Source: a bacterium (GTDB lineage Bacteria; Myxococcota_A; UBA9160; UBA6930). From it: a stretch of 45,326 nt of DNA. Each line of letters starts with the position of its first letter. Position 1 is the first letter of the stretch. Made by a program: the position numbers and the translations under genes. The notes beneath the pieces were generated by a model. It saw only the letters and a program-made list of their open reading frames with translations, had not been told where the DNA came from and ran no database searches. This document shows positions 12,028-36,471 of the stretch, in pieces. The DNA is taken from contig JAAETT010000437.1 in NCBI GenBank assembly GCA_024228115.1, positions 1 through 45,326 of the forward strand, read 5' to 3'.

Positions 12028-12102
12028 TTGCTGTGGGCTCCTTGGGCGGCCGGTCTCCGAGTTGCACCCCGGGCGGGCCGCCGCGGTAGGGAACGCCCCG
12101 GC

Positions 12103-12131
12103 ATTGTATCCCCCCAGGTGACCACCGAAAC
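12103..12131 (-). promoter_or_regulatory. Possible sigma-70 promoter of korAB
   Basis: On the minus strand a TACAAT -10 hexamer (12103-12108) lies about 75 nt before the korA start, but the segment 17 nt further upstream (GTTTCG) is a poor -35. The rest of the 231-nt divergent gap between korA and the next gene shows nothing recognisable. Confidence 0.3.
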
Positions 12132-12258
12132 CCCCGAGGGCAAGAGCGTGGGAGATCTGGCCCGCCCGGGAAAAAGGCCTTTGAAAGAAAGGACTTCTGA
12201 GGGTGGCCTGCGCTCGGATGAACCTCAAGTGGCGGCCGCCCGGGGCCGATAGCAATGC

Positions 12259-13422
12259 ATGTTCTTCGCGCGGCGGGATCAGCCGCTGAATCTCCTCCCG
12301 GGGGCCATTCGCAGCCTCCAGCTCTCGCTCAACACGCCCGTCGTGCGAGTGGAGAATCTGCCCGTGGCGCCGGCTCGAGCCGTCCTGGTCCTCCATGCCA
12401 GCTCCACGGGAGGGTTGGACGTGACGCTGAGCGTACGCTCGCTCAAGAGCGGCCAGGTGCTCCACTTCGCGCCCAGCGAGGATCTGCCCGACGCGGCCAG
12501 CCTGACGGACGCGGCGATGTCGTTTGGTGAGGGCATGGGATTCTTGTTCGATGACGATGAACTCGCCGTGGGGGACGCCGAGCGGGCCCACGGAATCTGG
12601 GTCGACTTGATGGGAGACCCACCCACACAACCTCCGGTAGAGGCGCTGGCGGAGCCCCAGCCGGCGGTGGAGGAAGCCAGCTTCGAGTTCGTCGAGGAAG
12701 AAGACGAGCCCGACGAGCTGGAGCTTCTTCTGGTCGAGGCGATCGACGAAGCCACCGTGGACGAACCGGTCGCGGCGGGCCAGTCGGCCCCAGCCCTCGA
12801 ACCCACACCGGATCCGGCCCCCGAGGTCTCGGCGGAGCCGGCACCCGAAGTCTCGCCGCCGCCCGATACGAACGCGCTCACCTCGTTGGTGGAGGACGCT
12901 CTCGCGGCCGACGGTACGCCTGCCCTCTCCGAGGCCGAAGGCGTCCAGCCGGCCGCACCGATGCTGACCAAATTCCGCTCGGCCTCATCGGAAGCCGTTA
13001 CGGAGCCTCAGCGACCAGAGATCGTTTCGCCGGAGTTCTCCGATTCCGAATCCGATCCCGAGGACGGTGTCGGGCCGGAGCTCGAATCCGACGAGTCCGC
13101 CATTGGCGGCGACGCCTCCGACGCCGAGGCGAACCTCCCCGACGCCGATGGACTGGTTGGCGAATCCCCCGTGAGCGTCGAGCCCACCCAGGCCGCGAAT
13201 GCGTCGGAAGCCGACGAACCCTCGACCGGGTGTGCTTCCACAGAAGATGACACGCCGGTGCTGCACGAGGCCGATTCCGATCGGCCCCTGGCCCCGGCCG
13301 TCGCGAAGGGAGGTCGCCTTCGCAAGGCTGCTCTTGGCCGTCTGAGACTGGTGAAGAAACGAAAGCCTGCGTCCGACGAGGATCGTCGGAAATGGTTGGC
13401 CCGCATCCTCTCTACTTTTTGA
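12259..13422 (+). CDS. Acidic protein of unknown function
   Basis: I do not recognise this 387-residue protein. Residues 1-110 look folded, with alternating hydrophobic residues (PVVRVENLPVAPARAVLVLH). The middle (about 120-335) is rich in Glu, Asp, Pro, Ala and Ser and is probably disordered. The last 50 residues are strongly basic (RLRKAALGRLRLVKKRK, DEDRRKW). There is no signal peptide or membrane segment. It lies 13 nt before a PilF-like TPR lipoprotein and probably shares its transcript. No ribosome binding site precedes the ATG at 12259. The charge layout suggests a scaffold or DNA/RNA-contacting protein, but that is a guess. Confidence 0.7.
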   Translation: MFFARRDQPLNLLPGAIRSLQLSLNTPVVRVENLPVAPARAVLVLHASSTGGLDVTLSVRSLKSGQVLHFAPSEDLPDAASLTDAAMSFGEGMGFLFDDDELAVGDAERAHGIWVDLMGDPPTQPPVEALAEPQPAVEEASFEFVEEEDEPDELELLLVEAIDEATVDEPVAAGQSAPALEPTPDPAPEVSAEPAPEVSPPPDTNALTSLVEDALAADGTPALSEAEGVQPAAPMLTKFRSASSEAVTEPQRPEIVSPEFSDSESDPEDGVGPELESDESAIGGDASDAEANLPDADGLVGESPVSVEPTQAANASEADEPSTGCASTEDDTPVLHEADSDRPLAPAVAKGGRLRKAALGRLRLVKKRKPASDEDRRKWLARILSTF

Positions 13423-13435
13423 AGGAGGCAACTCC

Positions 13436-14275
13436 GTGACAAGTCACGATCGAAATCGTCGAATCCTGTCGTTGGTTCTTGCTTTGATGGCCTGCGCCGT
13501 CTTCGCTTCGGGTTGTGCCACGTCTGGCGGCAGCCCGAAAGACGTCGCGGATACCTCCAGGCCTGGGAAAGCGGCGGTCGGCTCCGACCAGGCCGAACGC
13601 CGGGCGGCTGCTCACTACAACGTGGGTACGGGTCATATGCGAGAGGGGCGCATCGAGCTTGCGATTCGCGAGTTGCGCGTTTCGGAGGAGATGAATCCCA
13701 AGGACAAGTGGACCCAGCTCGCTCTGGCGGACGCTTACCGACGCAAAGGGCGCTCTGCCGATGCGGAGCAGCATCTGCTGAAGGCGTTGGCCGTCGACGC
13801 GGACTTCCAGCAGGCCAGCCTGACCCTTTCGGCGATCTACATCCAGCTGGAACGCTACGGCGAAGCGATCGCATTGACCGAAATGCTGATCGACGATCCG
13901 ACCTTTCCCTTGCCCTGGGCAGCGCTTACCAACCAGGGCTGGGCCTACTACAAGCTGGGCCAACTCGTGCCGGCCACCGAGGCCCTCGAGATGGCGACCG
14001 AATATCATAGTGGCTACTGGCGTCCGGTCCTCAGCCTCGGCATCATCGAAGCGGCGCGCGGAAACAATGAACGTGCGATCAAGCGCTTCGAGCGGGTCGT
14101 CGAGCTCGGACCGGGGCCGCTGGCCCAGGCCGAAGCGAACTATCGGCTCGCTGAGATCTTCATTGCGCAGGGAAACCGCGATCGGGCCGTCGAGTATCTG
14201 ACAGCCTCCGCGGCACAGAGGCCTAGCGGACCATGGGGCAAACGATCCGAGGAGTATCTGGATCGTCTCCGCTGA
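13436..14275 (+). CDS. TPR lipoprotein, PilF/PilW-like
   Basis: A 279-residue outer-membrane-type lipoprotein: a signal peptide ends at Cys27 (FASGC). It is followed by about five tetratricopeptide repeats (about 55-270), seen as repeated amphipathic helix pairs such as GRIELAIRELRVSEEMNP and NNERAIKRFERVVELGP. This is the plan of PilF/PilW, which guides assembly of the PilQ secretin, and the window also holds a pilus locus; other TPR lipoproteins look alike, so no symbol is given. The GTG start has a strong GAAGGAGG 8 nt upstream. Confidence 0.8.
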   Translation: MTSHDRNRRILSLVLALMACAVFASGCATSGGSPKDVADTSRPGKAAVGSDQAERRAAAHYNVGTGHMREGRIELAIRELRVSEEMNPKDKWTQLALADAYRRKGRSADAEQHLLKALAVDADFQQASLTLSAIYIQLERYGEAIALTEMLIDDPTFPLPWAALTNQGWAYYKLGQLVPATEALEMATEYHSGYWRPVLSLGIIEAARGNNERAIKRFERVVELGPGPLAQAEANYRLAEIFIAQGNRDRAVEYLTASAAQRPSGPWGKRSEEYLDRLR

Positions 14276-20591: not shown

Positions 20592-20659
20592 CGCCTGACT
20601 TCGCGTAAAGCTCAGTCTTTCCAGCTAGTTGTGTGTTTGTACCCCCGACTCAGAGTCCA

Positions 20660-20675
20660 TGGCACGAGGCTTGCT
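20660..20675 (+). promoter_or_regulatory. Sigma-54 promoter
   Basis: TGGCACGAGGCTTGCT is a full match to the -24/-12 consensus TGGCAC-N5-TTGCW with the required GG-N10-GC spacing. Transcription should start near 20686, about 55 nt before the GTG of the sigma factor gene. RpoN promoters need an ATP-dependent enhancer-binding activator, none of which is encoded nearby. Confidence 0.8.
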
Positions 20676-20739
20676 CTCTAGCCGCACAGGACCTCGGTCC
20701 CCACCACCTTTGAGAGCCATCCACCGCCAGGGAGATTCC

Positions 20740-21438
20740 GTGCCGACCCAATCGCCCCCCCCCATGGTCGTCCCGTCCTCGCGCGCCGAGAGCAAGCCTG
20801 CCCCCGAAAGGGCTGCTACGAGCCGCACCAAGATCGCGACGCCCCCGCGCCGAAAGTCCCGTCGTAACAACACCCCCTGGGAGAGCGACGCAGAGCTCGT
20901 AGAGAAGATCCTGGGCGGCAGCCGCGCCCATTTCGACCTTCTGTACGAGGCCTACTTCCCGCGGGTCTACGGGTTCGCCGTGAAGCGCTTGCGAGACGCG
21001 GGCGATGCCGAGGACGTCACCCAGGAAGTCTTCGTCACCGTCTACAAGGCCCTCCATACCTATGCCGGTACTTCCAGTCTGCTGGTCTGGATCTTCGGGA
21101 TCACCCGCAACAAGGTGAACCGCCGTTTCCGCGGCGTGCGGCCTCGTTTCGAGTCGCTCGATGCCCCGGCGGCCCAGGATCTGGCGACGCCGTCCGTTCC
21201 GACCGATCGCGCCGTCGACGCTCGCCGGATGTTGGCTCATTGCGAGGAGGTGATCGAAACGCAACTGACGCCTCTCCAGCGCCGGATCTTCCACCTGAAA
21301 CACCTGCGTCGGCAGTCGATCCGTTCGATCGCCGGAAGTCTCGGGAAGTCCGAGGATGCCGTGAAGGCCAACCTCTATCGGATGCGCCGCGCCATTGCCC
21401 AGGCAGCACCGGGGCTGGAGCAGATCCTCCAGGCCTGA
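20740..21438 (+). CDS. ECF-type RNA polymerase sigma factor 1
   Basis: 232 residues. An N-terminal Pro/Ser/Arg-rich tail (about 1-45) precedes sigma region 2 (about 50-130: DLLYEAYFPRVYGFAVKRL, AEDVTQEVFVTVYKAL, WIFGITRNKVNRRFR) and sigma region 4 (about 170-225: LTPLQRRIFHLKHLRRQSIRSIAGSLGKSEDAVKANLYRMRRAI). It should direct polymerase to a dedicated promoter set. GTG 20740 is chosen for the AGGGAG 7 nt before it; the ATG at 20659 would overlap the promoter. No anti-sigma gene follows; instead a paralogous sigma gene lies 150 nt downstream. Confidence 0.87.
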   Translation: MPTQSPPPMVVPSSRAESKPAPERAATSRTKIATPPRRKSRRNNTPWESDAELVEKILGGSRAHFDLLYEAYFPRVYGFAVKRLRDAGDAEDVTQEVFVTVYKALHTYAGTSSLLVWIFGITRNKVNRRFRGVRPRFESLDAPAAQDLATPSVPTDRAVDARRMLAHCEEVIETQLTPLQRRIFHLKHLRRQSIRSIAGSLGKSEDAVKANLYRMRRAIAQAAPGLEQILQA

Positions 21439-21482: not shown

Positions 21483-21521
21483 CCTGACACCCCCGGGGCT
21501 TCCCCCGGGGGTGTCAGGTTT
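21483..21521 (+). terminator. Strong terminator hairpin after sigma factor 1
   Basis: A perfect 16-bp stem (21483-21498 with 21503-21518; CCTGACACCCCCGGGG and its complement) closes a CTTC loop and is followed by a short TTT. It separates the two sigma factor genes. The short T run makes termination efficiency uncertain. Confidence 0.65.
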
Positions 21522-21588
21522 GAGGGGTAGCGCACGATTTCTTGACACGCAGGGCCGGCTCGCACCACTTCCTTACTGGAGACCCCGA

Positions 21589-22347
21589 ATGGGGGGTCCG
21601 GCCGGGTCTCCAACTGGGAAGGGCACACGCGAGGAGTCCGCGTTGGCCCTGGTTCGAGAACTGCGAGCGTCCGGCAACCGAGACCGGACGAGCAAGACTG
21701 CAGATGATGGTGCGGAGGTCGCCGGCCCCGGCGTGTCCGCTTCCGGACTCGGACCGCAAGCGGAGACGGGTCCGCCCTCGACCTGGACGGACGAGGCCCT
21801 CTTGGCCCGGGTGTGCACCGGCAGCGAAGAGCACTTCGACGTGCTCTATGAGCGCTACTTCCAACGCATCTACAGCTTCGTCTACGTGCGCGTGCGCAAC
21901 CATGCAGACGCGGAAGAGCTGACCCAGGAGACGTTTACCGTCGTCTTCCGATCCTCCGAGGGTTGGGCCGGTCGCTCGACCCCCTTGGCGTGGATCTACG
22001 GCGTCGCCAAGAACACGGTCTACAACCATCTGCGACGCCATCGGGTCCACGACCAGCGCGTGGAGCAAGCGGGGCCAGGCATCCTGGCCTCCGATTCGGC
22101 CCTCTGGGCATGCACGCCCGAGGATCATCTCGAGATGAGTCGCTATGCCCGCGCCATCCATACGCGATTAGAGGGTGTTGCTTCGTGGCAGGCGGAAGCC
22201 TTCCTGTTACGACACGTCCATAATCTTTCGATCCAAGAGATCTCGCAACGCACGGACCGATCTGGAGACGCCATCCGGTCCGGATTGTATCGGGTGAAAC
22301 GGTTGTTGTTGGAAGCGGATAGCCAGGAAAGGGCGAGGGCGACTTGA
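21589..22347 (+). CDS. ECF-type RNA polymerase sigma factor 2
   Basis: 252 residues and clearly related to sigma factor 1. A variable N-terminal tail (about 1-65) precedes region 2 (HFDVLYERYFQRIYSFVYVRVRN, AEELTQETFTVVFRS, WIYGVAKNTVYNHLRRH) and region 4 (VASWQAEAFLLRHVHNLSIQEISQRTDRSGDAIRSGLYRVKRLLLE). The ATG at 21589 has GGAG 7 nt upstream; an earlier in-frame GTG lies inside the terminator hairpin. It overlaps the next small gene by TTGA, so that product may regulate it. A TTGACA at 21542 has no good -10 partner, so the promoter is unclear. Confidence 0.85.
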   Translation: MGGPAGSPTGKGTREESALALVRELRASGNRDRTSKTADDGAEVAGPGVSASGLGPQAETGPPSTWTDEALLARVCTGSEEHFDVLYERYFQRIYSFVYVRVRNHADAEELTQETFTVVFRSSEGWAGRSTPLAWIYGVAKNTVYNHLRRHRVHDQRVEQAGPGILASDSALWACTPEDHLEMSRYARAIHTRLEGVASWQAEAFLLRHVHNLSIQEISQRTDRSGDAIRSGLYRVKRLLLEADSQERARAT

Positions 22348-24155: not shown

Positions 24156-24183
24156 TACAGGTTGCGCCGGTACCTGCCGATCC
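24156..24183 (+). promoter_or_regulatory. Sigma-28-like promoter motif of pilin 1
   Basis: TACAGGTT-N12-GCCGATCC. The same two boxes and spacing occur at 24981-25008 before pilin 2, with conservation continuing into TGGAG downstream. It lies upstream of the sigma-54 promoter, so pilin 1 may have two start points. Confidence 0.5.
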
Positions 24184-24203: not shown

Positions 24204-24219
24204 TGGCACGTCTGTTGCT
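24204..24219 (+). promoter_or_regulatory. Sigma-54 promoter of pilin 1
   Basis: TGGCACGTCTGTTGCT matches TGGCAC-N5-TTGCW fully. The predicted start is near 24230, giving a leader of about 90 nt before the ATG. pilA promoters of Myxococcus and Pseudomonas are RpoN/PilR dependent. Confidence 0.85.
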
Positions 24220-24321: not shown

Positions 24322-24891
24322 ATGCGAAAGCTTCTCAACCGCAAGCGCGGCTTCACCCTCATCGAGTTGATGATCGTGGTCGCCATCATCGGAATTCTGG
24401 CGGCCATCGCCATTCCGAACTTCCTCCGCTTCCAGCTCCGCTCGAAGACGGGTGAAGCCCGGACCAACCTGGCGGGCATCCGTACCGCAGAAGAGTCGTA
24501 CTTTGCCGAGTACGGCGTCTACATCGCCCAGTCCGCGGGCGTCCCGGCGACGGGTGGTACCAACCAGAAGACCGCCTGGAGCACCGGCACCGGCTTCGAC
24601 ACGATGGGCTGGGCACCGGAAGGTTCCGTGTTCTTCCAGTACGCCGTGACGATCAACGGTGCGTCCACGGACTACACCGCCGAGAGCGCCTCGGACCTTG
24701 ATGGCGACGCCGTTTTCTCGGACTTCGTGTATGTCCATCCGATTCCGGCAGCCACCGCGGGTTCGGCCGCAGCGGGCCTCGGCGACGGCAACTGCGCCGC
24801 CACGGGCGCGTACAACGCCAATGGTGGTGCTCAGGACCTGCTGAATGCAGTGGGCGCCTGCGAAGCGATGGACGGCCAGAGCCAGTTCTAA
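24322..24891 (+). CDS. pilA: Type IV major pilin-like protein (pilin 1)
   Basis: 189 residues. A short basic leader MRKLLNRKRG ends at the Gly/Phe cleavage site, followed by FTLIELMIVVAIIGILAAIA with Glu at +5: a classical type IVa N-terminus that is cut and methylated by PilD and polymerised as the fibre core. The globular part carries Gly/Ser/Thr-rich strands, DLDGD and one C-terminal Cys pair. AAGGAG precedes the ATG at 24322. It has its own sigma-54 promoter, enhancer and strong terminator, as expected for an abundant pilin. Pilin 2 shares the N-terminus and the PEGSVFFQY and DxDGD...YVHP segments. Confidence 0.94.
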   Translation: MRKLLNRKRGFTLIELMIVVAIIGILAAIAIPNFLRFQLRSKTGEARTNLAGIRTAEESYFAEYGVYIAQSAGVPATGGTNQKTAWSTGTGFDTMGWAPEGSVFFQYAVTINGASTDYTAESASDLDGDAVFSDFVYVHPIPAATAGSAAAGLGDGNCAATGAYNANGGAQDLLNAVGACEAMDGQSQF

Positions 24892-24980: not shown

Positions 24981-25008
24981 TACAGGTTCCTCGGGATTCT
25001 GCCGATCC
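24981..25008 (+). promoter_or_regulatory. Sigma-28-like promoter motif of pilin 2
   Basis: TACAGGTT-N12-GCCGATCC, box-for-box identical to 24156-24183. A start near 25015 is predicted, which favours the downstream ATG 25064 for pilin 2 because the GGAGGG before ATG 25028 would lie at the transcript end. No sigma-54 site is present here. Confidence 0.5.
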
Positions 25009-25063
25009 CTGGAGGGAACGACCGGCGATGTCCCACGGTGTAACCCACGAGTTCGAGGCCTTC

Positions 25064-25627
25064 ATGACTCTTCGTCGATCTCATCGATCCGGTTTCACGC
25101 TGATCGAACTGATGATCGTGGTCGCCATCATCGGCATCCTTGCCGCTACCGGGATCGCGAGCTTCCAGAGGTTTCAGACCCGAAGCAAGCTGGTCGAGGT
25201 GAGGGCCAACCTCAAAGGTGCGGCCACCGCCCAGAACGCATACTTCGCGGAACAGGGCGGGTATCTGGCAGCCGCTGCGACCCCGGCCGCTGCGCCCGGT
25301 CCCCAGAAGCAGCGCTGGATCGGCGGCGGTGCCGTCAGCTTCGATACCGTCGGGTTCGTGCCAGAGGGCTCGGTATTCTTCCAATACGGAGCCGACGTGA
25401 ACGCCGGCCTGACCGCGTTCACGGTCTCTGCGCTGGGCGACCTGGATGGCGACGGCATCACCTCGGACTTCGCCTACGTGCACCCGGTCCCGGGCGCGTC
25501 ATTGGGCCCGGCCTCGAGCCATGCACTGGGCTGCGCGGGTGCGGGCGTCATCGATCCGGCACAGCCCGCCGGCGCATTCAACGTGGTCGGCCCCTGTGCT
25601 GCAGCAGACGGCCGGAACGAGTTCTAG
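25064..25627 (+). CDS. Second type IV pilin-like protein (pilin 2)
   Basis: 187 residues from ATG 25064, or 199 from ATG 25028. From 25064 the leader MTLRRSHRSG has the usual length and is cut before FTLIELMIVVAIIGILAATG with Glu at +5. The globular part resembles pilin 1 (VPEGSVFFQYG, DLDGDGITSDFAYVHPVPGA) and has two Cys near the C-terminus, so the pair arose by tandem duplication. It has no terminator after it and reads into pilG 12 nt later. It could be a minor pilin or an alternative major pilin. Confidence 0.88.
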   Translation: MTLRRSHRSGFTLIELMIVVAIIGILAATGIASFQRFQTRSKLVEVRANLKGAATAQNAYFAEQGGYLAAAATPAAAPGPQKQRWIGGGAVSFDTVGFVPEGSVFFQYGADVNAGLTAFTVSALGDLDGDGITSDFAYVHPVPGASLGPASSHALGCAGAGVIDPAQPAGAFNVVGPCAAADGRNEF

Positions 25628-25639
25628 ACGGAGGCACGC

Positions 25640-26554
25640 TTGCAGGGGGGGATGAAGCAGATCGTGCTGCTCGCGCTGGTCGGCGTGGTGATCGCGGGTG
25701 CCCACAGGCAGCTTCCGACCACGCCGCGTCGTGCCGAAGGTGAGGCCCCCGTTCCCGACGCGAACCTGGTACGGGTGGCGTCACTTGGATTCGATGCGCT
25801 GGCTTCGGATCTCTACTGGATGCAAGCCGTGCAGATCGGCGGCGACGCAAGGGGCACCGCCGGCCGGAGCCATCGAATCGGCGCGCTGGTCGACCTGCTG
25901 ACGCAGCTCGATCCCTGGGTCGATCATCCCTACCGGTTTGCGGCCCTGTGGATGACCGACGATGTGCCAGCCGTCCGGACGGCGAATCGCCTGCTCGAGC
26001 GTGGCATCGAGCATCATCCGGACGAGTGGCGCAATCGCTTCTACCTGGCCTTCAACTACTTCTATTGGCTCGGTGATAGCGAGAAAGCGGCTGAAGCCCT
26101 GGAACCCGCGCTGGGGCTTCCCGGTGCACCTCGCTACCTCCCGCGCATGGTCGCCCGGCTGAAGAGCCAGGGCGAGGGGCTCGACGTGTCGGCAGCATTC
26201 CTGAACGAGATGCTGCGACGCACGGAAGATCCGGTGGCGAAAGCAGAATATCAACGGGCACTTCTCGAGATCGAGGCGGAATCCCGGGCGCGCCTGCTGG
26301 ATCGGGCCCGCGAGGAGTTCAAGCGCCGCCAGGGTCGTGACCTCGTGGCGGTCGAGGAACTTCTCCATGTGGAGCCCCCGGTGTTGGCAAGACTTCCCGA
26401 GGAGCCGAATGGCTCGTCATGGGTCTTGAATGACGAGGGCGTGATCGTCTCCGAGAAGCTCCGCTTCCGGTACGTACCGAAGCTCGATGGCACCAGTCGC
26501 ATGCTGATCGAGCAGCTTCATGAGAAGACGGATGAAGAAGGAGAAACTCCGTGA
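25640..26554 (+). CDS. pilG: PilG-like pilus assembly protein
   Basis: 304 residues: an N-terminal membrane anchor (about 6-22), a short Pro-rich linker, then an all-helical TPR-like body (about 40-245; LERGIEHHPDEWRNRFYLAFNYFYWLGDSEKAAEAL) and a C-terminal strand-rich end. The identification rests mainly on order: in Myxococcus xanthus pilG follows pilA and precedes pilH and pilI, and all three are needed for pilus assembly. The TTG start has CGGAGG 5 nt upstream; ATG 25652 is an alternative. It is coupled to pilH by a GTGA overlap. Confidence 0.72.
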   Translation: MQGGMKQIVLLALVGVVIAGAHRQLPTTPRRAEGEAPVPDANLVRVASLGFDALASDLYWMQAVQIGGDARGTAGRSHRIGALVDLLTQLDPWVDHPYRFAALWMTDDVPAVRTANRLLERGIEHHPDEWRNRFYLAFNYFYWLGDSEKAAEALEPALGLPGAPRYLPRMVARLKSQGEGLDVSAAFLNEMLRRTEDPVAKAEYQRALLEIEAESRARLLDRAREEFKRRQGRDLVAVEELLHVEPPVLARLPEEPNGSSWVLNDEGVIVSEKLRFRYVPKLDGTSRMLIEQLHEKTDEEGETP

Positions 26555-27513
26555 GCGCACCTGAAATCGTGGTGCAGGTCGAGGGCCTCATCAAGGATTT
26601 CCGCCCGGGCTTTGGCCTCACGCGCAAACGCGTTCTTCACGGGATCGATCTCGAGGTGCATCGCGGAGAGGTCTTCGCGTTCATAGGCCCCAACGGTGCG
26701 GGCAAGACGACACTCCTGAAGGTCTTGCTGGGCCTGATCAGGGCAACCGAGGGGCATGCGTCGATCCTGGGTTGCGATGTGCGAGAGACCGCTGTGCGGA
26801 GTCGGATCGGGTTCTTGCCAGAGGCCCCCTACTTCTACGATTTCCTTACGGGTCGGGAGATCCTGAACTTCTATGCGAAGATCTCCGGGGTCGAGGGCTC
26901 GGTCCGCGATCGCCGGATCGACGAACTCCTCGAGAGCGTCGGGCTGTCTCATGCGGGAAACCTCCGGCTCCGCTCCTACTCGAAGGGCATGTTGCAGCGG
27001 ATCGGCATCGCTCAGGCCCTCGTTCACGATCCGGAGATCGTGTTCCTGGACGAACCCATGAGCGGTCTCGATCCGGTGGGGCGAAAGGAGATTCGCGACC
27101 TGATCCTGCAGCTCCATTCATCGGGCAAGACCGTCTTCATGAACACCCACATCCTTTCGGATGTGGAAGTGATCTGCGACCGGGTCGCCATCATCGCCGA
27201 GGGTCGCATCGTCCACGAAGGCCCCGTCCACGAGCTCCCCGGGAGCGACGGGCAGTTGGTCGACATCAACGTGACGGGCTTGACGCCCGAGCTGGCGGAG
27301 TCTCTCCAGGGCGAGTTCCGCGCCGAGCTCCGCGGGCGAAGTGAGAGGGTCGAGATCCGCGTCCCCGAGAAGAGCGTCGACGCAGTTCTTGGCAGGGTCC
27401 TGGCGCAAGGAGGTGCCGTGCGAGGCGTTGCGCCCGCAGGGGCAGCTCTCGAAGATCTCTTCTTGCGCGCCATTCACGAGCCGAAACCCCGAGATGGGGA
27501 GGAAAGCCGGTGA
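26551..27513 (+). CDS. pilH: PilH-like ABC transporter ATPase
   Basis: 320 residues. Walker [10 protein letters not shown] (about 47-55), a signature variant [10 protein letters not shown], Walker [14 protein letters not shown] and H-loop NTHIL give a complete ABC ATPase; residues about 235-320 are the extra C-terminal domain common in ABC-2 export ATPases. With pilI it forms an exporter-like complex which in M. xanthus is required for pilus formation; the substrate is unknown. The GTG start overlaps the pilG stop, with AAGGAG upstream, and the gene overlaps pilI by GTGA. Confidence 0.88.
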
Positions 27514-28283
27514 ACATACTCGCGATCGCTGCAATTGCCGAGAACACCGTCCGGGACGCCGTTCGAAACAAGGTGCTCTACATCCTGCTCTTCTTCGCGC
27601 TCGTCCTGATCGGTGCGAGTTTCCTTCTTGCCACTCTTTCCTACGTGGAGCGCGAGCGCATCCTCCAGGATGTGGCATTGGCGTCGATTCGGATGTTCGG
27701 AGCGGCGATTGCCATCTTCATCGGCGTCAGCCTCGTGCACCGGGAAGTCGACCGCCGCACGATCTTCACGATTCTCTCCAAGCCGGTTTCGCGCGCAGAC
27801 TTCCTGGTCGGCAAGTACCTGGGCCTCGTGACCACGCTCTGGCTGCAGCTGGCGATCATGTCGGCAGGCTTCGTCTTCGTCTCATGGTCGATGGATGCAC
27901 CTCTGAATGGCGGCCACGCGGTGGCGTTGGTGGCCACCGCATTGGAACTCGCGGTTCTGGTGGCACTCGCGACCCTGTTCTCGTCGTTTGCGACCCCCTT
28001 TCTCGCGGCTTGCTACAGCGTCGGGCTCTACGTGGTGGGGCACATCACGCGGGATATCCGAGCCCTCGGAGAGATCGCGGAATCCACTACAGCCAAGACG
28101 TTGACGGTGTGGATCCATCGCATCTTTCCCGACCTCGAGTCCTTCAACTGGACGATCGAGGCCGTTCACGGCCTGCCGATTCCGCCGGAAGAAGTGGCCT
28201 GGTCATTCGTCATGGGTATTGGCTGGTGCATTGGTTTTCTCACCGTCGCCGTCGTCGTCTTCGAGCGCCGGGACTTCCGGTAA
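27510..28283 (+). CDS. pilI: PilI-like ABC-2 type permease
   Basis: 257 residues with about six membrane helices (about 22-40, 55-78, 108-128, 140-160, 168-188, 232-252), the plan of an ABC-2 permease. The motif ENTVRDAVRNKVLYILL at the start and KPVSRADFLVGKYLG in the first cytoplasmic part are typical of this family. It is the membrane partner of the preceding ATPase. It is joined to pilH by a GTGA overlap, and pilD follows after 26 nt. Confidence 0.85.
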   Translation: MNILAIAAIAENTVRDAVRNKVLYILLFFALVLIGASFLLATLSYVERERILQDVALASIRMFGAAIAIFIGVSLVHREVDRRTIFTILSKPVSRADFLVGKYLGLVTTLWLQLAIMSAGFVFVSWSMDAPLNGGHAVALVATALELAVLVALATLFSSFATPFLAACYSVGLYVVGHITRDIRALGEIAESTTAKTLTVWIHRIFPDLESFNWTIEAVHGLPIPPEEVAWSFVMGIGWCIGFLTVAVVVFERRDFR

Positions 28284-28309: not shown

Positions 28310-29185
28310 GTGACAGCCAGCGAAGAACTCTGGGTCCTGACGGGGCTCGCATTTGCGTTCGGGTTGGTGGTCGGCTCCTTCCTGAACGTGGTGATCCACC
28401 GGGTCCCCGAAGGCGAGTCCATCGTTCAGCCGCGGTCTCGCTGTCCCCGATGTGGCGTGCAGATCGCTTCCTGGGACAACATTCCGCTCGTTTCGTACAT
28501 CCTGCTGCGAGGACGCTGCCGCCATTGCCAGGTGAGCATCCCGCTCCGCTATCCCCTCCTCGAACTCGTGACTGGCCTGGTCTTCGCCGCCATCGCGCTC
28601 CGCTTCGGTCCGGATCCGATGATGCTGGTGTGGGCCGGTTTCAGCGCTGCGCTCATCGCGGCGGCCGTGATCGATTTCGATCATCAGTTCATTCCCGATG
28701 GCATCAGCGTCGGGGGTACGTTGGTCGCGCTGGCGATCGTTCCCACCACGCGGTGGCTGCTTGGTGAGCCTGCCCTTTCGGCCTGGTTGGTGAGTCTCAC
28801 GGGGGGGCTGGTGGGAGCTGGTTTTCTCTGGACCGTGGGTTTTGCCCACGCGCGGATCTCGGCGGCGATGGGTCGCCGCTTTCCGCATTGGCCCGGCGAA
28901 GGCGAAGAGATGCCAACCCCGGGAAGCCTCGACTACTGGACGTGGTTTCCGGGCCTGGGCTTTGGCGACGTGAAGCTGATGGCCTTGATCGGTGTCTGCC
29001 TCGGCCCGGTCGGTGTCTTGTGGACCATCATCCTGGCGGCGGTCGTTGGCCTCATCTGGGGCGGCGGGGTGGCGCTCTTCCGCGGAGCGGCCAACATGCC
29101 GTTCGGATTCGCGCCGTCCATCGCCGTCGCGGCGATCCTGACGATGCTGGTTCCATCCTCGTTCCTGAGCGCTCTCCTGGGCTGA
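28310..29185 (+). CDS. pilD: Prepilin peptidase / N-methyltransferase
   Basis: Cuts prepilin leaders and methylates the new N-terminal Phe at the inner membrane. The 291 residues contain the N-terminal methylase domain with two CxxC pairs (CPRCG, CRHCQ), the two catalytic Asp motifs of type IV prepilin peptidases (DFDHQFIPD and GFGDVKLM), and about eight membrane helices. Its substrates should be the two pilins 3-4 kb upstream. The GTG start lacks a clear ribosome binding site. Confidence 0.95.
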   Translation: MTASEELWVLTGLAFAFGLVVGSFLNVVIHRVPEGESIVQPRSRCPRCGVQIASWDNIPLVSYILLRGRCRHCQVSIPLRYPLLELVTGLVFAAIALRFGPDPMMLVWAGFSAALIAAAVIDFDHQFIPDGISVGGTLVALAIVPTTRWLLGEPALSAWLVSLTGGLVGAGFLWTVGFAHARISAAMGRRFPHWPGEGEEMPTPGSLDYWTWFPGLGFGDVKLMALIGVCLGPVGVLWTIILAAVVGLIWGGGVALFRGAANMPFGFAPSIAVAAILTMLVPSSFLSALLG

Positions 29186-29217: not shown

Positions 29218-29245
29218 TCAAGTCTTCGGCCTGACAGGCCGATTC
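29218..29245 (+). promoter_or_regulatory. Sigma-28-like promoter motif of sulfatase-TPR 1
   Basis: TCAAGTCT-N12-GCCGATTC has the same layout as the motifs before the GGDEF regulator and both pilins. A start near 29252 gives a leader of about 13 nt with a G-rich ribosome binding site. Confidence 0.45.
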
Positions 29246-29264: not shown

Positions 29265-31505
29265 ATGGAGACGAACGGTTCCGGAATTCGTTGGGCGGCG
29301 GGACTCATCGGCCTGTCGTTGGCAATCGCTTGTAGCGATCTGGAGCTCAGAGAGAACCCGGAGCCCTCAGCGCGGACGAAGGGCGTGGAGGTCGCCGGCG
29401 AACTCGCATCCGCGCGGGTTGCCCCGGTCGACGCCCCGGATGTCGTTCTGATCACGATCGATACCCTGCGCGCGGATCATGTCGGTGCCTACGGCGCGGA
29501 CCACGGGGCCACACCCAACATCGATCGCCTCGCCGAGGAGAGCGTCCTCTTCGAGAGCGCCCTGACGACGGCACCGTTGACGTTGCCTGCCCACGCCTCG
29601 ATGATGACCGGGCTCCTGCCTCCCCAACATGGTGTCCGACACAACGGGGTGTACTTCCTTCGCAATGAAGCGCGCACGCTGGCGGAGGAATTCCGGGAGG
29701 GCGGCTGGGCCACCGGTGCGGTCCTTGGCGCGTTCGTGCTCTCCTCGCAGTTCGGCCTCCAACAGGGCTTCGATCTCTACGACGATCATTTCGGGGAACA
29801 CCGCTCCAGCGGGAGTGGCTTCGTCGAACGATCCGCAGGGGAGGTGACGGACCAGGCCCTGCGCTGGGTCGAGTCCGTCGATGCTCCGTTCTTCCTCTGG
29901 GTGCACTACTACGATCCGCATGCGGACTACCACCCGGTCGAGCCTCATAAGTCACGCTTCCCCGGTTCGCCCTACGTTGCCGAGATCGCCTATACCGACG
30001 CAGAGCTGGGTCGGCTCCTGGAAGCTCTACGCTCGAGGGACCGATGGGCGAACACGGTGGTGGCGCTGACCTCGGATCACGGAGAAGGCCTGGGCCAACA
30101 CGGTGAGTCGACCCACGGCTATTTCCTGTACGAAAGCGTTCTCCGGGTTCCCTTGCTGCTTCGGGGGCCCGGATTGAATGCGGGCAACCGCCGTAGCGAT
30201 CCGGTGTCGAATGCCGCTGTCGGTCCCACGCTCGCTTCCCTGGCGAAGCTACCGCCTCTCGATTCGAGTGCTCTTCCCTCGCTCGTCGAAGTAGATCGAG
30301 CGAGCGATACACCCATCTACGCAGAAACGCTCGCGCCGCAGCTCGATTTCGGCTGGGCTCCGCTCTCTGCGACACGCGGAGAACAATTCGCCTACATCCA
30401 CGGACCCAGTCCGGAGCTCTACGACATCGGTGCCGATCCGCATCAGGTGCAGAACCTGCTCGAGAGCCAGGCCGCCGATGATGCAACCCAGGCGAGGGCG
30501 CGGTTGGAAGCGCACGTAGAGCGTGTGCTCGCGGACGCAACGAAACCCAGCCGAAGAATGATCGATTCCGAGACCGCTCGGCGGATGGAAGCCCTCGGGT
30601 ACCTCGTTGCCCAGGAGACGCCCACCCAAACCGGCATGGATCCGAAGGACGGGCAACGTTGGATCGAGCTGATGTCGTCCGCAATGACCGCCTACTTCGA
30701 CAACCGCTTCGACGATGCCGAAGCCGATGCACGCGAGGTGCTCGAAGTCTTCCCTGAGAGTGGCAAGATGCGCGCCATCATGGCTCGAATGGCGCTCGCG
30801 ACCGGCCGCCTGGAGGAAGCGTTGCACCACGTCGAGGCCCTCGTGCGGATCCACCCCGACGCTGCCGAGAATCACGTGCTCCTGGGTTTGACCCTTCTGC
30901 GCATGAAGAAACTCGAAGAGGCCGTGGCCGCGTTCCAGACCGGCGTCGATCGGGATTCGGGACACTACGGAGCGCATCTGGGTGCGATGTGGAAGGGTGC
31001 GCTCGGGAAGCCTCTCTCCGAGGTCCAGCGCCATGCCGAACTTGCCATCGAACTCTCCGGCGGTGGGCCAGCGATCCTCGAGGAGGTTGGCGAGACGTGG
31101 GAAGGCCTGGGCGAGTTCGACCAGGCGTTGGCAGCCTATCAACGCGGACTCGAAGAGGCGCCGGACTCCGAACGATTGCATATGCGCGTGGCGATCCAAT
31201 ACGCGAGGCGCAACGATCCCACGGGTTTTCAGGCTCATATCGAGAGAGCAGGGGCGGCTGGAACCCGCCCGGACCTGCTGAACCGCCTCGGAATCGCCCT
31301 GGCCGCAAGGGGCGCACACCGCGACGCAGAGATGATCTTCCGCGGGCTCCTGGCCCGTCATCCCGGAAATCAGGTCGCGCGCCTCAACCTGGCGCGCGTG
31401 TTCGAGCAGACGGACAGGGTGTCGGAAGCGGAATCCTTGCGGGCTGGGGAGGCCATTCCAGTCGGGCCGGCTGGGCCGGCCATCCCGGCCAACGCTGCGC
31501 CGTGA
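29265..31505 (+). CDS. Sulfatase-like / TPR lipoprotein 1
   Basis: 746 residues: a lipoprotein-type signal (Cys23), an alkaline-phosphatase-superfamily sulfatase domain (about 58-420), then TPR repeats (about 460-730). Metal-binding Asp66 (ITIDTLRADHVGAYG) and SDHGEGLG are kept. At the usual Cys/Ser-x-Pro-x-Arg site it has Thr106-Leu-Pro-Ala-His110, so there is no formylglycine residue and a Thr nucleophile is likely, as in phosphoglycerol and phosphoethanolamine transferases. It should act outside the membrane on a sulfate-, phosphate- or glycerophosphate-modified surface molecule. First of three tandem paralogs, overlapping the next by GTGA. Confidence 0.88.
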   Translation: METNGSGIRWAAGLIGLSLAIACSDLELRENPEPSARTKGVEVAGELASARVAPVDAPDVVLITIDTLRADHVGAYGADHGATPNIDRLAEESVLFESALTTAPLTLPAHASMMTGLLPPQHGVRHNGVYFLRNEARTLAEEFREGGWATGAVLGAFVLSSQFGLQQGFDLYDDHFGEHRSSGSGFVERSAGEVTDQALRWVESVDAPFFLWVHYYDPHADYHPVEPHKSRFPGSPYVAEIAYTDAELGRLLEALRSRDRWANTVVALTSDHGEGLGQHGESTHGYFLYESVLRVPLLLRGPGLNAGNRRSDPVSNAAVGPTLASLAKLPPLDSSALPSLVEVDRASDTPIYAETLAPQLDFGWAPLSATRGEQFAYIHGPSPELYDIGADPHQVQNLLESQAADDATQARARLEAHVERVLADATKPSRRMIDSETARRMEALGYLVAQETPTQTGMDPKDGQRWIELMSSAMTAYFDNRFDDAEADAREVLEVFPESGKMRAIMARMALATGRLEEALHHVEALVRIHPDAAENHVLLGLTLLRMKKLEEAVAAFQTGVDRDSGHYGAHLGAMWKGALGKPLSEVQRHAELAIELSGGGPAILEEVGETWEGLGEFDQALAAYQRGLEEAPDSERLHMRVAIQYARRNDPTGFQAHIERAGAAGTRPDLLNRLGIALAARGAHRDAEMIFRGLLARHPGNQVARLNLARVFEQTDRVSEAESLRAGEAIPVGPAGPAIPANAAP

Positions 31506-33451
31506 AGAAGGCTCTGCTCCTCGCGAGTGTGCTCGGGGTCGCACTTGCGTCGGCTCTCGCGACGGTGGGCTGCAACCGCATCGAGATCCTCCCGGCAGAT
31601 CCGCCGGCGTCGGTTCTCCTCGTGACGATCGATACGCTGCGGGCAGACCATGTCGGCGCCTACGGTGCCGAGGACGTGGGGACTCCCGTGCTCGATCGGC
31701 TGGCGTCCGAGGGCGTACGCTTCGCGAACGCGATCGCTCCCACGCCGATCACCTTGCCGTCTCATGCTTCGCTACTGACGGGCCTGTATCCGCCGTCTCA
31801 CGGCGTTCGACACAACGGGGTGTACCGCCTCGGCTCCGAGGCGACGACGCTTGCTGAACACTTTGGAGCCGCGGGCTATTCGACCGGAGCCGTGGTCGGA
31901 GCCGTCGTGCTCGCCGGGCAATTCGGTCTCGCGCAGGGCTTCGATCACTACGACGACCATGTACGCGGCAGGCAATCGAGTCGGAGTGGCTACCCGGAGC
32001 GTCGGGCGGGAGAGGTGACCGACCGGGCGCTGGCATGGCTGAAGGATGCCCGGGATCCATTCTTCCTATGGGTCCACTACTACGATCCCCACGCCTCCTA
32101 CGAACCGCCCGAAGATTGGGCCAAGCGTTTTCCTGGACGTCCCTACGACGGCGAGATCGCCTATGTCGATGCGGAGCTGGGGCGCCTGCTCCTGGGTGCC
32201 CGGGCTCTGGGGCACGAAGCTCCGATCGTTGCCGTGACCTCCGATCACGGGGAGAGCCTCGGCGAGCACGGGGAGCGCACGCACTCGGTCCTCGTCTACG
32301 ATGCGGTGCTCCGCGTCCCCCTGATCCTCTCCGGGCCGGGCATCCCTTCCGGTTCGGTAGGGGAGGGCGTCGTCTCGCTCGTGGATCTGGCACCTACGCT
32401 CGCGGGCCTGGCCGGTCTTCCGGAACTCGTCGACGTGGAGGGCCGCGACTTGCTGACGGAGATGGGCTCGCCGCGTCCACGGGCCGAGGCTGAGGGCTGG
32501 GCCTACGCCGAGAGCCTGGTCGCCAAGCTCACGATGGGATGGGATGGCCTTCACACGATTCGGACGAGCGACTATCAATACATCCAATCGTCTCGCCCCG
32601 AACTCTTCGATCTTCGAAGCGACCCGGACGAGCTTCGGGATCTTCTCGGCGTCGATGCAAGCTCCGCGGCGCTCTCGTCTGGCCAACGCAGGTGGACCGA
32701 GGACGCGGAGCAGCGCCTGGCATCCTTGGCCGAGCGAGAAATCGATCGTCCGATGTCCGTGCTGGACGAAGCGACCCGCGCGCAGATCGAATCGCTCGGC
32801 TACGCCCTGCCGACCCCCGGCGCGGGGGGAGCACTCGCTGAGCCGTTCTCACCGAGGGACGGTCTGGACTGGATCAAGAAGGCGCTGGCTGCGCACGAAG
32901 CCCAACTTGCCGGACGATTGGATCTTGCCGAGGCGCTGGCACGAGACGTCGTCGATCGCTTCCCCCAGAGCCAGCGCGGGCATGACATCCTGACGAACGT
33001 CTACCTCCGCACGCGTCGCTGGGAGCAGGCGATGCACCACGCGGAAACGTTGGCGCGGCTTGCCCCGGACTGGGCCGACCATCATGCCCGGGTCGGATTG
33101 ACGCGGATGAAGACGGGCGATGTTCCTGGGGCCGTGCAGGCATTCGAGCAGGCGTTGGCCCGAGATCCCGACCATCTGGGCGCTCATCTCGGTGCGATGC
33201 ACGCGCTGGGTCTCGGAGGGCCGCTCGAAGACGCCAGGGAGCACGCGAGTGCGGTGGTGCGACTGGCCCATCAGGATCGCGTCTTCGAGGAGTTGGGGCG
33301 CGTCTGGCAGGCGAACGGCCGCGCGTTCGAAGCCCGTTCGGCGTGGGAGACTGGTCTCGAACGCTTCCCGACGAGTGAGAGACTTCGCCAACGACTCGCC
33401 CAGGGTGCACCTCCGGCAGCCCAGGCTGAAGAAGGGAACGCGAAACCGTGA
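31502..33451 (+). CDS. Sulfatase-like / TPR lipoprotein 2
   Basis: 649 residues with the plan of its neighbours: signal peptide to Cys24, sulfatase-like domain (about 37-390) and TPR tail (about 420-640). The metal Asp is Asp44; the nucleophile site is Thr84-Leu-Pro-Ser-His88; FLWVHYYDPHA and TSDHGESLGEHGE are shared with both paralogs. It is the shortest of the three, mainly in the TPR part. The GTG overlaps the stop of paralog 1 without its own ribosome binding site, so translation is coupled. Paralogs 2 and 3 share the post-lipobox CNR(I/V)E motif and are closest to each other at the N-terminus. Confidence 0.88.
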   Translation: MKKALLLASVLGVALASALATVGCNRIEILPADPPASVLLVTIDTLRADHVGAYGAEDVGTPVLDRLASEGVRFANAIAPTPITLPSHASLLTGLYPPSHGVRHNGVYRLGSEATTLAEHFGAAGYSTGAVVGAVVLAGQFGLAQGFDHYDDHVRGRQSSRSGYPERRAGEVTDRALAWLKDARDPFFLWVHYYDPHASYEPPEDWAKRFPGRPYDGEIAYVDAELGRLLLGARALGHEAPIVAVTSDHGESLGEHGERTHSVLVYDAVLRVPLILSGPGIPSGSVGEGVVSLVDLAPTLAGLAGLPELVDVEGRDLLTEMGSPRPRAEAEGWAYAESLVAKLTMGWDGLHTIRTSDYQYIQSSRPELFDLRSDPDELRDLLGVDASSAALSSGQRRWTEDAEQRLASLAEREIDRPMSVLDEATRAQIESLGYALPTPGAGGALAEPFSPRDGLDWIKKALAAHEAQLAGRLDLAEALARDVVDRFPQSQRGHDILTNVYLRTRRWEQAMHHAETLARLAPDWADHHARVGLTRMKTGDVPGAVQAFEQALARDPDHLGAHLGAMHALGLGGPLEDAREHASAVVRLAHQDRVFEELGRVWQANGRAFEARSAWETGLERFPTSERLRQRLAQGAPPAAQAEEGNAKP

Positions 33452-35583
33452 TGGCAGGACGGATGGCTCTTCTCGCGGGGCTCGTGCTCGCGTCGTGTTT
33501 CATGCAGGCGTGCAATCGGGTGGAGGTCGTTCCCGAGGCCTTGTCGACTCCGCAGCGCAACGAGCCTCCCGCGGGCGCGCCCAGCTTCGTACTCGTCACG
33601 ATCGATACGCTGCGTGCGGATCACGTGGGCGCCTACGGTGCCACCGATGTCGAGACACCCACGATGGATCGGCTGGCCAGCGAAGGCGTGCTCTTCGAGA
33701 CCGCGATGGCCTCCGCGCCCCTGACACTGCCGGCGCATACGTCGATTCTCACGGGTCTCTATCCGCCGCGTCATGGCGTTCGCCACAACGCGATCTTTCG
33801 CGTCTCCGAAAAGACACCGAGTGTCGCGACGCATCTCCGGGAGGCTGGCTGGCAGACCGGCGCCTTCGTCGGGGCCGCCGTTCTCGCGGCGGAGTTCGGC
33901 CTCGATCGGGGCTTTGATCGGTATGACGAACAAAATGGCGGGGATCGCTCCAGCGTGAACGGTTTCCCGGAGCGCAGTGCTGAAGACGTGACGGACCAGG
34001 CGCTCGCCTGGCTGCAGACGATCGAGGGCCCCTACTTCCTCTGGGTGCACTACTACGATCCTCACGTCGCCTACGCTCCACCGGAACCCTGGGCAGGACG
34101 CTTCGCCGAACGCCCCTACGACGGCGAGATCGCCTACGTCGATTCCCAGCTCCAGAGGTTGCTGGGAGGTCTGGAAGGGCGGAAGGATCGGCCGTCCACC
34201 TTCCTCATCGTCACCTCCGACCATGGCGAAGGTCTGGGAGAGCATGGGGAGCCGGATCATTCCTATCTCGTCTACGACGCGGATCTGCATGTTCCGTTGA
34301 TCGTGACCGGCCCCGAAATCGAAAGCCGTCGCGTCACGGGCGTCGTTTCTCACACCAGCATCGCGCCCACGATGCTCTCGCTGGCCGGATTGGCTCTGGA
34401 AGGTCGCCTGGATGCCCCGGATCTGGCGCCGCTCCTGCGCGGTGCACAGGAGACGGAGGAACTCACGGGCTGGGCGTATTCCGAGAGTCTGGCCGGTCGT
34501 CTCGACCACGGCTGGAGTTCGCTGCAGGCGATCCGGACCGACGACCACCACTACGTACGCGCACCGCAGCCCGAGGTCTTCGAACTCGCGAGCGACCCCG
34601 GACAGCTCCACAATCGCTTGTCGCCCGAGCGGTCGGATCTGGTGGACGTGGCCAGCCAGGCCGAAGCACGCATCGAAGCGTTGTCTCGCGGAGCCCGCGG
34701 TCTCGAGACCGTCGAGATCGACGCCGACAGGCGCGCTCAGGTCGAGGCGCTTGGCTATGTCGTTCCGGACTCCGTTCCCGAAGAAGGTTCCGTCCATCCG
34801 AAGGACGCGCTTCCCTTTGCGCGGCTCTCCTTCATCGCCACGGCTCACCTCTTGAGCGGCGAATACGACAAGGCCCTCGAGGTGTCGGCCCGCGTGCTGG
34901 AGCGGTTCCCCGACAGCTACCGGATGCACGATGTGGCGGCACGTAGTCATCTCAACCTGAAGGCGCCAGAGGCCGCATTGCGCCACGCCCAGCAATGCGT
35001 CGAGCTGTTCGGGGAGAACGTTTCGACCTGGATGTTGTTGGCGACCGTCCACCTCGAGAAAAACGATCGCGTCGGTGCACGGAAGGCCTACGAAGCTGCG
35101 CTCGAGCGCGATCCCGGGCATCTGGATCCGCAGCTCGCCTTGATGAAGCTCGACATCGATGAGGATCTCCCGGCCGCCGAGCGGCGGGCGGAAGTGCTCC
35201 TGCGAGATGGTTGCGAGAACCCGCGTCTATGCGAACGCGTTGCCGCGACCTGGGAGATCGGTGGGGAATTCGACCGCGCGTTCGAGCTCTACGCGGAAAC
35301 GGCTGGCCGCTTCCCCGACGATTCCCGCCTGAACCAACGCATGGCGATTCAATATGTTCGTCGCGGAGAGGACGAAGCCGCAGCACGGCACCAGGCCCGC
35401 GTCGACCCCGAGCAGGTAGATGGCGCGCTCCTGGTGCGCCTTGCCATCGCCTACGCGGCTCGCGGAACGCCGGAACTCGCGATTCCCGTGCTCGAGAACG
35501 CCCTCGCGCGAGACCCCGAGGATGAGGGTGCGCGCCATCTCCTCCTGCGCGTGCAGCGGGAGAGTAGGCGCACCGACGGCTGA
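33448..35583 (+). CDS. Sulfatase-like / TPR lipoprotein 3
   Basis: 711 residues: signal peptide to Cys22, sulfatase-like domain (about 46-400) and a long TPR tail (about 450-705). Metal Asp53 and the nucleophile site Thr93-Leu-Pro-Ala-His97 follow the same pattern as paralogs 1 and 2. The start may be GTG 33448 or ATG 33451, both overlapping the previous stop. The three genes read as one operon and end about 45 nt before a methyltransferase. No sulfatase-maturing enzyme is encoded nearby, consistent with a Thr nucleophile that needs none. Confidence 0.88.
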   Translation: MMAGRMALLAGLVLASCFMQACNRVEVVPEALSTPQRNEPPAGAPSFVLVTIDTLRADHVGAYGATDVETPTMDRLASEGVLFETAMASAPLTLPAHTSILTGLYPPRHGVRHNAIFRVSEKTPSVATHLREAGWQTGAFVGAAVLAAEFGLDRGFDRYDEQNGGDRSSVNGFPERSAEDVTDQALAWLQTIEGPYFLWVHYYDPHVAYAPPEPWAGRFAERPYDGEIAYVDSQLQRLLGGLEGRKDRPSTFLIVTSDHGEGLGEHGEPDHSYLVYDADLHVPLIVTGPEIESRRVTGVVSHTSIAPTMLSLAGLALEGRLDAPDLAPLLRGAQETEELTGWAYSESLAGRLDHGWSSLQAIRTDDHHYVRAPQPEVFELASDPGQLHNRLSPERSDLVDVASQAEARIEALSRGARGLETVEIDADRRAQVEALGYVVPDSVPEEGSVHPKDALPFARLSFIATAHLLSGEYDKALEVSARVLERFPDSYRMHDVAARSHLNLKAPEAALRHAQQCVELFGENVSTWMLLATVHLEKNDRVGARKAYEAALERDPGHLDPQLALMKLDIDEDLPAAERRAEVLLRDGCENPRLCERVAATWEIGGEFDRAFELYAETAGRFPDDSRLNQRMAIQYVRRGEDEAAARHQARVDPEQVDGALLVRLAIAYAARGTPELAIPVLENALARDPEDEGARHLLLRVQRESRRTDG

Positions 35584-35628: not shown

Positions 35629-36471
35629 ATGACGGATCAAACCGAATTCTGGAACGAGCACGGCAATACCTGGGTGGTTTGGCAGGAGCGCCTCGATCGC
35701 CAGATCGCACCCCACGGTCAGCTTGCCCTCGACGCCCTCGACGCGAAGTCCGGTGAAGCCATCCTGGACATCGGTTGTGGCTGCGGCGATACCCTGCTTG
35801 CGTTGGCCGAGCGGGTCGGCCCGAGTGGCAAGGTGTTGGGTCTCGACGTTTCCGCTCCCATGTTGGCGCGTGCGCGGGAACGGGTGGCCAAGGCCGGGGC
35901 GGACCAGGTGGCGATCCAGGAAGGCGATGCTGCCGAGGCGTCGCTCGCCCCGGGTGGTTTCGACGCCCTGTTCTCGCGCTTTGGCGTGATGTTTTTCGAC
36001 GACCCGGTGAAGGCATTCACCAACTTCCACCAGGCGCTCCGGGCCGGCGGGCGCATCGCGTTCGTTTGTTGGCGGGGCCCTCAGGACAACCCGTGGATCA
36101 CCGTGCCGATGGCCGCAGTGGCTCCGCTCGTCGAATTCCCGCCGCCTCCGCCGCCCGGCTCTCCGGGCATGCTGGCCCTGGCCGACGAGGATCGCCTGCG
36201 CAGCATTCTTGGCGACGCCGGCTTCAGCGAGATCACCTTGCAGCCTGCGGATGTCGCGATGGCGCCGGGAGGTGGAACCCTCGACGGAGCGGTCGAGATG
36301 TTCCTGGAAATCGGCCCCGTGGCGTCGGCGCTCCGCACCAGCGAAGCGGATGATGCGACCCGGCGGCGGGTGGAGGACGCCGTGCGCGAGGCCTTCGCGG
36401 CCCAGGCCGGGGACGACGACCAACTCGAACTCGGTTCGGGATGTTGGCTGGTGACCGCCAGGCGAGGATAG
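35629..36471 (+). CDS. Class I SAM-dependent methyltransferase
   Basis: 280 residues with a Rossmann-like methyltransferase domain: motif I ILDIGCGCGDTLL (about 45-57), motif II VLGLDVSAPMLARAR, and motif IV around FSRFGVMFFDDPVKAF. It is of the UbiE/Methyltransf_25 type; the substrate cannot be read from the sequence. A proline run (PPPPPPG) interrupts the middle. No ribosome binding site precedes the ATG, and a TACGCT -10-like hexamer ends 7 nt before it, so the transcript may be leaderless. Confidence 0.85.
   Translation: MTDQTEFWNEHGNTWVVWQERLDRQIAPHGQLALDALDAKSGEAILDIGCGCGDTLLALAERVGPSGKVLGLDVSAPMLARARERVAKAGADQVAIQEGDAAEASLAPGGFDALFSRFGVMFFDDPVKAFTNFHQALRAGGRIAFVCWRGPQDNPWITVPMAAVAPLVEFPPPPPPGSPGMLALADEDRLRSILGDAGFSEITLQPADVAMAPGGGTLDGAVEMFLEIGPVASALRTSEADDATRRRVEDAVREAFAAQAGDDDQLELGSGCWLVTARRG

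Follow-up and report, generated by a model that had tools for sequence, protein, structure and literature searches.

Three tandem genes of an uncultured myxobacterial relative, here termed S1, S2 and S3, combine a sulfatase-type fold with a catalytic residue set of the EptA type and lie directly behind a type IV pilus cluster. They were found in a window of 45,326 nucleotides, which is the whole stretch of DNA that was analysed. By analogy with PptA of Neisseria, S1–S3 may be envelope lipoproteins that add a phospho-group to pilin or to another partner of the pilus, a reading to which a probability of about 0.5 is assigned.

The pilus genes and S1–S3 run on one strand in the order pilA1-pilA2-pilGHI-pilD, then S1-S2-S3 (Table 1), and 80 nt separate the end of pilD from the start of S1. 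The start of S2 overlaps the stop of S1 by 4 nt, as does the start of S3 the stop of S2, so the three genes appear to be translationally coupled. S2 shares 46% identity with S1, and S3 shares 40%. An N-terminal hydrophobic segment closes with a lipobox-type cysteine in each protein (LAIAC/SD, TVGC/NR and MQAC/NR), PF00884 follows with E values of 2e-44 to 8e-41, and C-terminal TPR families (TPR_19, TPR_2 and TPR_14) score above the Pfam cut-offs. The cysteine at the lipobox position is kept in all pil-linked homologues that were read, and S1–S3 are predicted to be exported and lipid-anchored. An earlier note made from the sequence had described three coupled paralogues directly after pilGHI-pilD, each joining a lipoprotein signal, an alkaline-phosphatase-superfamily domain and a TPR tail, and this description holds in every part, including the prepilin peptidase gene, the ABC pair pilHI and the PilG-like gene immediately upstream.

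Table 1. Genes, domains and putative promoter elements of the pilus and S1–S3 region (window coordinates)
Feature	Position	Strand	Remarks
Sigma28-like motif upstream of pilA1	24156..24183	+	
Exact sigma54 -24/-12-like site upstream of pilA1	24204..24218	+	TGGCACGTCTGTTGC; exact matches few
pilA1, type IV prepilin	24322..24891	+	
Sigma28-like motif upstream of pilA2	24981..25008	+	
pilA2, second prepilin	25028..25627	+	
pilG-like	25640..26554	+	No Pfam match; identified from gene order and conserved synteny
pilH-like ABC ATPase	26551..27513	+	
pilI-like ABC-2 permease	27510..28283	+	
pilD, prepilin peptidase	28310..29185	+	PF06750 and PF01478
Sigma28-like motif upstream of S1	29218..29245	+	TCAAGTCT-N12-GCCGATTC; conserved in genus relatives
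S1	29265..31505	+	746 aa, ATG start; lipoprotein signal, Thr-type sulfatase-fold domain, TPRs; nucleophile Thr106 at 29580-29582
S1 catalytic domain	29436..30248	+	PF00884 (Pfam)
S2	31502..33451	+	649 aa, GTG start; architecture as S1, shorter TPR tail; nucleophile Thr84 at 31751-31753
S2 catalytic domain	31613..32416	+	PF00884 (Pfam)
S3	33448..35583	+	711 aa, GTG start; architecture as S1; nucleophile Thr93 at 33724-33726; AF2 model m136207af9148
S3 catalytic domain	33580..34389	+	PF00884 (Pfam)

The residues of the active site define the predicted chemistry. The nucleophile motif reads TLPAH in S1, TLPSH in S2 and TLPAH in S3, and the C/S-x-P-x-R formylglycine motif is absent from all three, just as the earlier note had read them. 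That note had treated threonine at the formylglycine position as peculiar, which was overstated. Threonine occupies the nucleophile position in at least 17 of the 29 PF00884 matches of this genome (S1–S3 included) and cysteine in only a handful, and the idea that the substitution is a rarity was rejected. Ten residues (T93, P95, H97, N114, H201, D204, H206, D258, H259 and H271 in S3 numbering) are invariant when 65 relatives, drawn from Myxococcota, Acidobacteriota, Planctomycetota, Aminicenantota and other groups, are aligned, and position 53 is aspartate in every row that spans it.

These residues correspond to those of the phosphoethanolamine transferases. Profile alignment (hhalign) of the S3 family against the single sequence of E. 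coli EptA gives a probability of 95.8 and an E value of 7e-9, and it matches T93 to T282, D53 to E244, H206 to H385, D258/H259 to D455/H456 and H271 to H468. The EptA threonine aligned with T93 stands four residues past the cysteine of SCGTAT. In MCR-1, residues E246, T285, H395, D465, H466 and H478 bind two zinc ions and Thr285 is the nucleophile (PMC5175174). With the residue numbers of EptA and MCR-1 related through their common spacing, the first-zinc set of the phosphoethanolamine transferases (Glu, Thr, Asp, His) is represented in the S proteins by Thr, Asp and His, with Asp53 in place of the glutamate. The two histidine positions of the second zinc are likewise occupied, H206 and H271 aligning with EptA H385 and H468, which by this spacing would correspond to MCR-1 H395 and H478. 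The spacing of 13 residues from Asp to His is identical in the S family and in the EptA/MCR-1 type, whereas the aligned sulfatase chain 4upl has lysine where the S family has the invariant His271. Because the rest of the site is of the EptA type, and because both formylglycine and the lysine of sulfatases and phosphonate monoester hydrolases are missing, S1–S3 are predicted to be Thr-type phospho-form transferases or phosphodiesterases and not sulfatases. The same residues suggest that they would bind two metals, and it is very probable that they are Thr/dimetal phospho-enzymes. The earlier note's proposal of a Thr-dependent hydrolase or phospho-group transferase is supported by an invariant EptA-type residue set together with the fold.

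The fold was examined with an AF2 model of S3 built on the 65-row alignment (mean pLDDT 92.6, pTM 0.88). In this model Thr93 opens a helix (residues 93–102), as nucleophiles of the superfamily do, and residues 451–709 fold into 15 helices, which is the number that some seven TPRs would give. A single N-terminal helix (residues 2–22) precedes the catalytic domain, and the model contains no N-terminal five-helix membrane domain. Residues 43–450 match sulfatases and phosphonate monoester hydrolases over about 350–380 residues, with Z scores of 33–40 and rmsd values of 2.4–3.8 (Foldseek, VIA-align). The best match (Z 40.3, rmsd 2.7 over 348 residues) places the domain in the sulfatase fold, and since sulfatases fill the list of matches it carries no information on how close EptA or MCR structures would rank. 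The fold search and the residue alignment together therefore identify a sulfatase-type fold carrying an EptA-type catalytic residue set.

Comparison with known systems makes this combination clearer. EptA- and PptA-type phospho-form transferases have an N-terminal five-helix membrane domain. EptA, MCR-1 and PptA share with the S proteins an extracytoplasmic location, the Thr nucleophile, the D/DH residues at first-metal positions and the two second-zinc histidines at the same positions and spacing. They differ in their membrane domain and in a glutamate as first ligand, where the S proteins have a lipid anchor, an aspartate and a TxPxH motif; the S proteins moreover have their nearest fold neighbours among sulfatases, carry a TPR tail and occur as three tandem copies within a pil cluster. 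Because S1–S3 are without the five-helix membrane domain, they are not members of the EptA/PptA family, though they may work alike. The formylglycine (S1) sulfatases and the phosphonate monoester hydrolases share the fold (Z 33–40) and PF00884, but the S proteins lack the formylglycine motif, have His for Lys and are fused to TPRs. The NPP phosphodiesterase family (PF01663) scores above its curated cut-off (57–72 bits against 23), and the S motif T-x-P-x-H resembles the NPP signature T-x-P-N-H; PF00884, however, is a far better model, and the histidine at +13 is spaced as in EptA. Uncharacterised sulfatase-TPR proteins of Acidobacteriota, Planctomycetota and Aminicenantota have the same domain order and invariant residues, but lie away from pilus loci, and about half of them have a lipobox-like cysteine. 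They are multi-copy and tandem, and no pilus genes stand alongside them. The neighbours of the Acidobacteriota and Aminicenantota genes include TPR proteins and large CarboxypepD_reg/TonB-receptor-like proteins in 14 of 88 cases (loci L022-L081), which is not decisive for function.

For the pilus locus itself, the comparison is with the pilA-pilGHI-pilD cluster of Myxococcus xanthus, which has the same pilA, pilGHI and pilD neighbours. A published survey of type IV pili in myxobacteria treats pilGHI and pilD, leaves the S genes unreported and does not mention sulfatases (PMC6060248), and a literature search for sulfatase and TPR proteins with pilin returned nothing relevant. Neisseria PptA belongs to the same superfamily, is related to EptB, and transfers phosphoethanolamine or phosphocholine onto serine of pilin (PMC10434233, PMC4010543). 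The earlier note's statement that it knew of no characterised system with this layout calls for a qualification: PptA, though of a different architecture, is a functional precedent as a phospho-form transferase of the alkaline-phosphatase superfamily that acts on pilin.

The association with pili was followed across relatives by searching 80 genomes of the order with PilI and S3 and comparing the pil loci by tblastn. The pil cluster is present in 11 of 14 genomes of the host's family, the other three being reduced genomes with neither pil nor S. S genes are found in the cluster or directly after it in 10 of these 11 (G000-G005, G008, G010, G011 and G013), with one to three copies in each pil-linked genome. 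In one of the ten (G002) a contig break falls between pilD and S1, and the position is shown by the flanking yceD-fabD. One genome (G004) has an S copy between pilA1 and pilA2, and in another (G010) S genes stand both between pilA2 and pilG and behind pilD. The eleventh (G012) has a pil cluster and no pil-linked S gene, and in G022, from another family, S follows pilD. The other families of the order keep pilA-pilGHI-pilD-yceD-fabD, and there the slot after pilD is mostly empty or filled by a gene for a glutamyl-tRNA synthetase or a methyltransferase. An order-wide association was rejected, most of the pil loci examined in other families being without S.

The 20 pil-linked proteins group together in a tree built from 92 homologues, with 2 label changes compared to 18.3 in shuffles, and the rows that break this clade come from contigs too short for linkage to be assessed. 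Within the genus, S1, S2 and S3 form separate orthologous groups. The association between S genes and pili is real but lineage-specific, and essentially confined to one clade. Linkage to pilus loci across relatives, whose absence the earlier note had named as refuting its idea, is borne out within the family (and in G022), but not in most other families or in other phyla. Since G012 and most other families have pil without S, the S proteins are not essential for pili. Conservation in one family and absence from most others is what would be expected from a single recruitment to a pilus function, and it is probable that the function of S is tied to the pilus system.

Several further features of these loci were observed. 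The linkage count leaves out weaker PF00884-like genes that lie close to the pil genes of G063, G018 and G014. Two distant PF00884-like proteins in or beside pil clusters of two other families (G018 and G063; L160 2079-3512 and L144 6373-8394) are possibly independent recruitments. No feature tracking S was evident in PilA C-termini compared by eye. A UbiE-type SAM methyltransferase gene (35629-36471) directly follows S3; since such a gene stands behind pilD even where S is missing (L139, L142, L165), it belongs with the pil locus and not with S. A methyltransferase is implicated in converting phosphoethanolamine to phosphocholine on gonococcal pilin (PMC4010543). A gene for a Tgl/PilW-like TPR lipoprotein (13436-14275; NF033762, E 1e-24) lies some 10 kb before the pilin genes and is itself preceded by three successive ORFs of 270–387 aa (10318-13422) without Pfam or NCBIfam matches.

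The promoter region offers a second connection. A sigma28-like motif, TMMAGNYT-N12-GCCGATYC, is exact upstream of pilA1, pilA2 and S1, as had been noticed from the sequence, and seven matches occur at up to two mismatches compared to 1.36 expected. The 6.4-Mb genome contains four exact matches, three of which are these sites, while a reversed-pattern control gives none; the fourth (contig C428) stands before unrelated-looking ORFs. The pattern was written from the three sites, and the independent part of this result is its rarity in the genome and the fact that relatives keep it upstream of S1. When trained on sites 5' of the pilin genes of relatives, with no S site included, a weight matrix recovers the element upstream of S1 at p per 220 nt of 0.007 in the window, 0.009 in G003, 0.019 in G001, 0.034 in G008 and 0.046 in G002, and it is weak or absent in others. 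Tandem ECF-type sigma factor genes (20629-21438 and 21511-22347), which many genomes of the order keep upstream of their pil cluster, are possible readers of the motif. Besides the site upstream of pilA1, an exact sigma54-like -24/-12 site lies at 20660, in the region of the first ECF-type gene; at up to two mismatches, sigma54 matches are at chance level.

Linkage and promoter bear directly on the alternative that S1–S3 are Thr-type phosphodiesterases or phosphomonoesterases acting on envelope or environmental phosphoesters, and stand at the pilus locus through inherited order or co-regulation with no action on pili. This is unlikely, though far from negligible. It would fit the multi-copy, tandem, pilus-unlinked relatives of other phyla, often beside TPR and CarboxypepD_reg/TonB-receptor-like proteins, the many further Thr-type PF00884 proteins of the same genome, and the PF01663 scores. 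However, the linkage has outlasted internal rearrangement (G004 and G010) and changes of copy number, and the motif common to the pilins and S1 is nearly missing elsewhere in the genome.

EptA-type enzymes usually have lipid A and LPS sugars as acceptors, which lends some support to a different target: phospho-groups that the pilus needs, for example for retraction or anchoring, may be placed by S1–S3 on LPS or on a polysaccharide of the surface and not on pilin itself. The PilGHI ABC transporter, for whose role the myxobacterial survey leaves experimental data to be gained (PMC6060248), could supply the acceptor or the donor. Glycan-biosynthesis genes are absent from the immediate cluster, however, and the idea is indirect, making it improbable.

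Pilus assembly involves TPR lipoproteins of the kind of Tgl/PilW, and it might be supposed that S1–S3 are catalytically dead scaffolds or chaperones in which only the TPR arm functions. The S3 copy of G002 points in this direction, as it keeps the signal and TPRs and is apparently without most of the catalytic domain: query residues 4–127 and 476–706 are fused in one 378-aa open frame (L117, G002:C170, 5234-6283), in what seems to be a natural deletion or an assembly artefact. The metal and nucleophile residues are nevertheless invariant in S1, S2, S3 and 62 relatives, which makes this very improbable. That S1–S3 are true sulfatases with unmodified threonine is hardly credible: despite the sulfatase fold and PF00884 as the best Pfam model, there is no CxPxR/SxPxR, the Lys that should stand 13 residues past the catalytic Asp is His in 65 of 65 relatives, and a Ser or Thr substituted for formylglycine leaves the sulfo-enzyme trapped.

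In the preferred reading, a phospho-form transfer analogous to that of PptA, S1–S3 would be lipid-anchored metalloenzymes with an unmodified Thr nucleophile in a two-metal site, followed by a TPR superhelix. The threonine would attack a phosphodiester donor, such as the head group of a phospholipid, to form a phospho-Thr intermediate, and the phospho-group would then pass to a hydroxyl of an acceptor kept close to the TPR arm. Pilin, or some other surface partner associated with the pilus, would serve as this acceptor in the present lineage. We infer the phospho-Thr chemistry, the preference for transfer over hydrolysis (which sequence cannot separate) and the nature of the acceptor. Against this reading stand the absence of the five-helix membrane domain, which leaves access to the donor unaccounted for, the pil clusters without S, the wider TPR family away from pili and the lack of an evident PilA feature that tracks S. 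Transfer onto pilin itself is plausible, though less likely than not.

It can be suggested, tentatively, that in a lineage of Myxococcota a phospho-form transferase modifying pilin or the pilus arose independently of PptA from a sulfatase-fold/TPR lipoprotein scaffold, with three paralogues dividing the acceptor sites and expression tied to the pilin genes by a common promoter class. S1–S3 are a concrete candidate for enzymes that chemically modify type IV pili in bacteria other than Neisseria, and they have EptA-type catalytic residues set on a sulfatase-fold, lipid-anchored, TPR-carrying chassis. They also serve as a warning that many “sulfatase-like” annotations in Myxococcota and Acidobacteriota belong to predicted phospho-enzymes.
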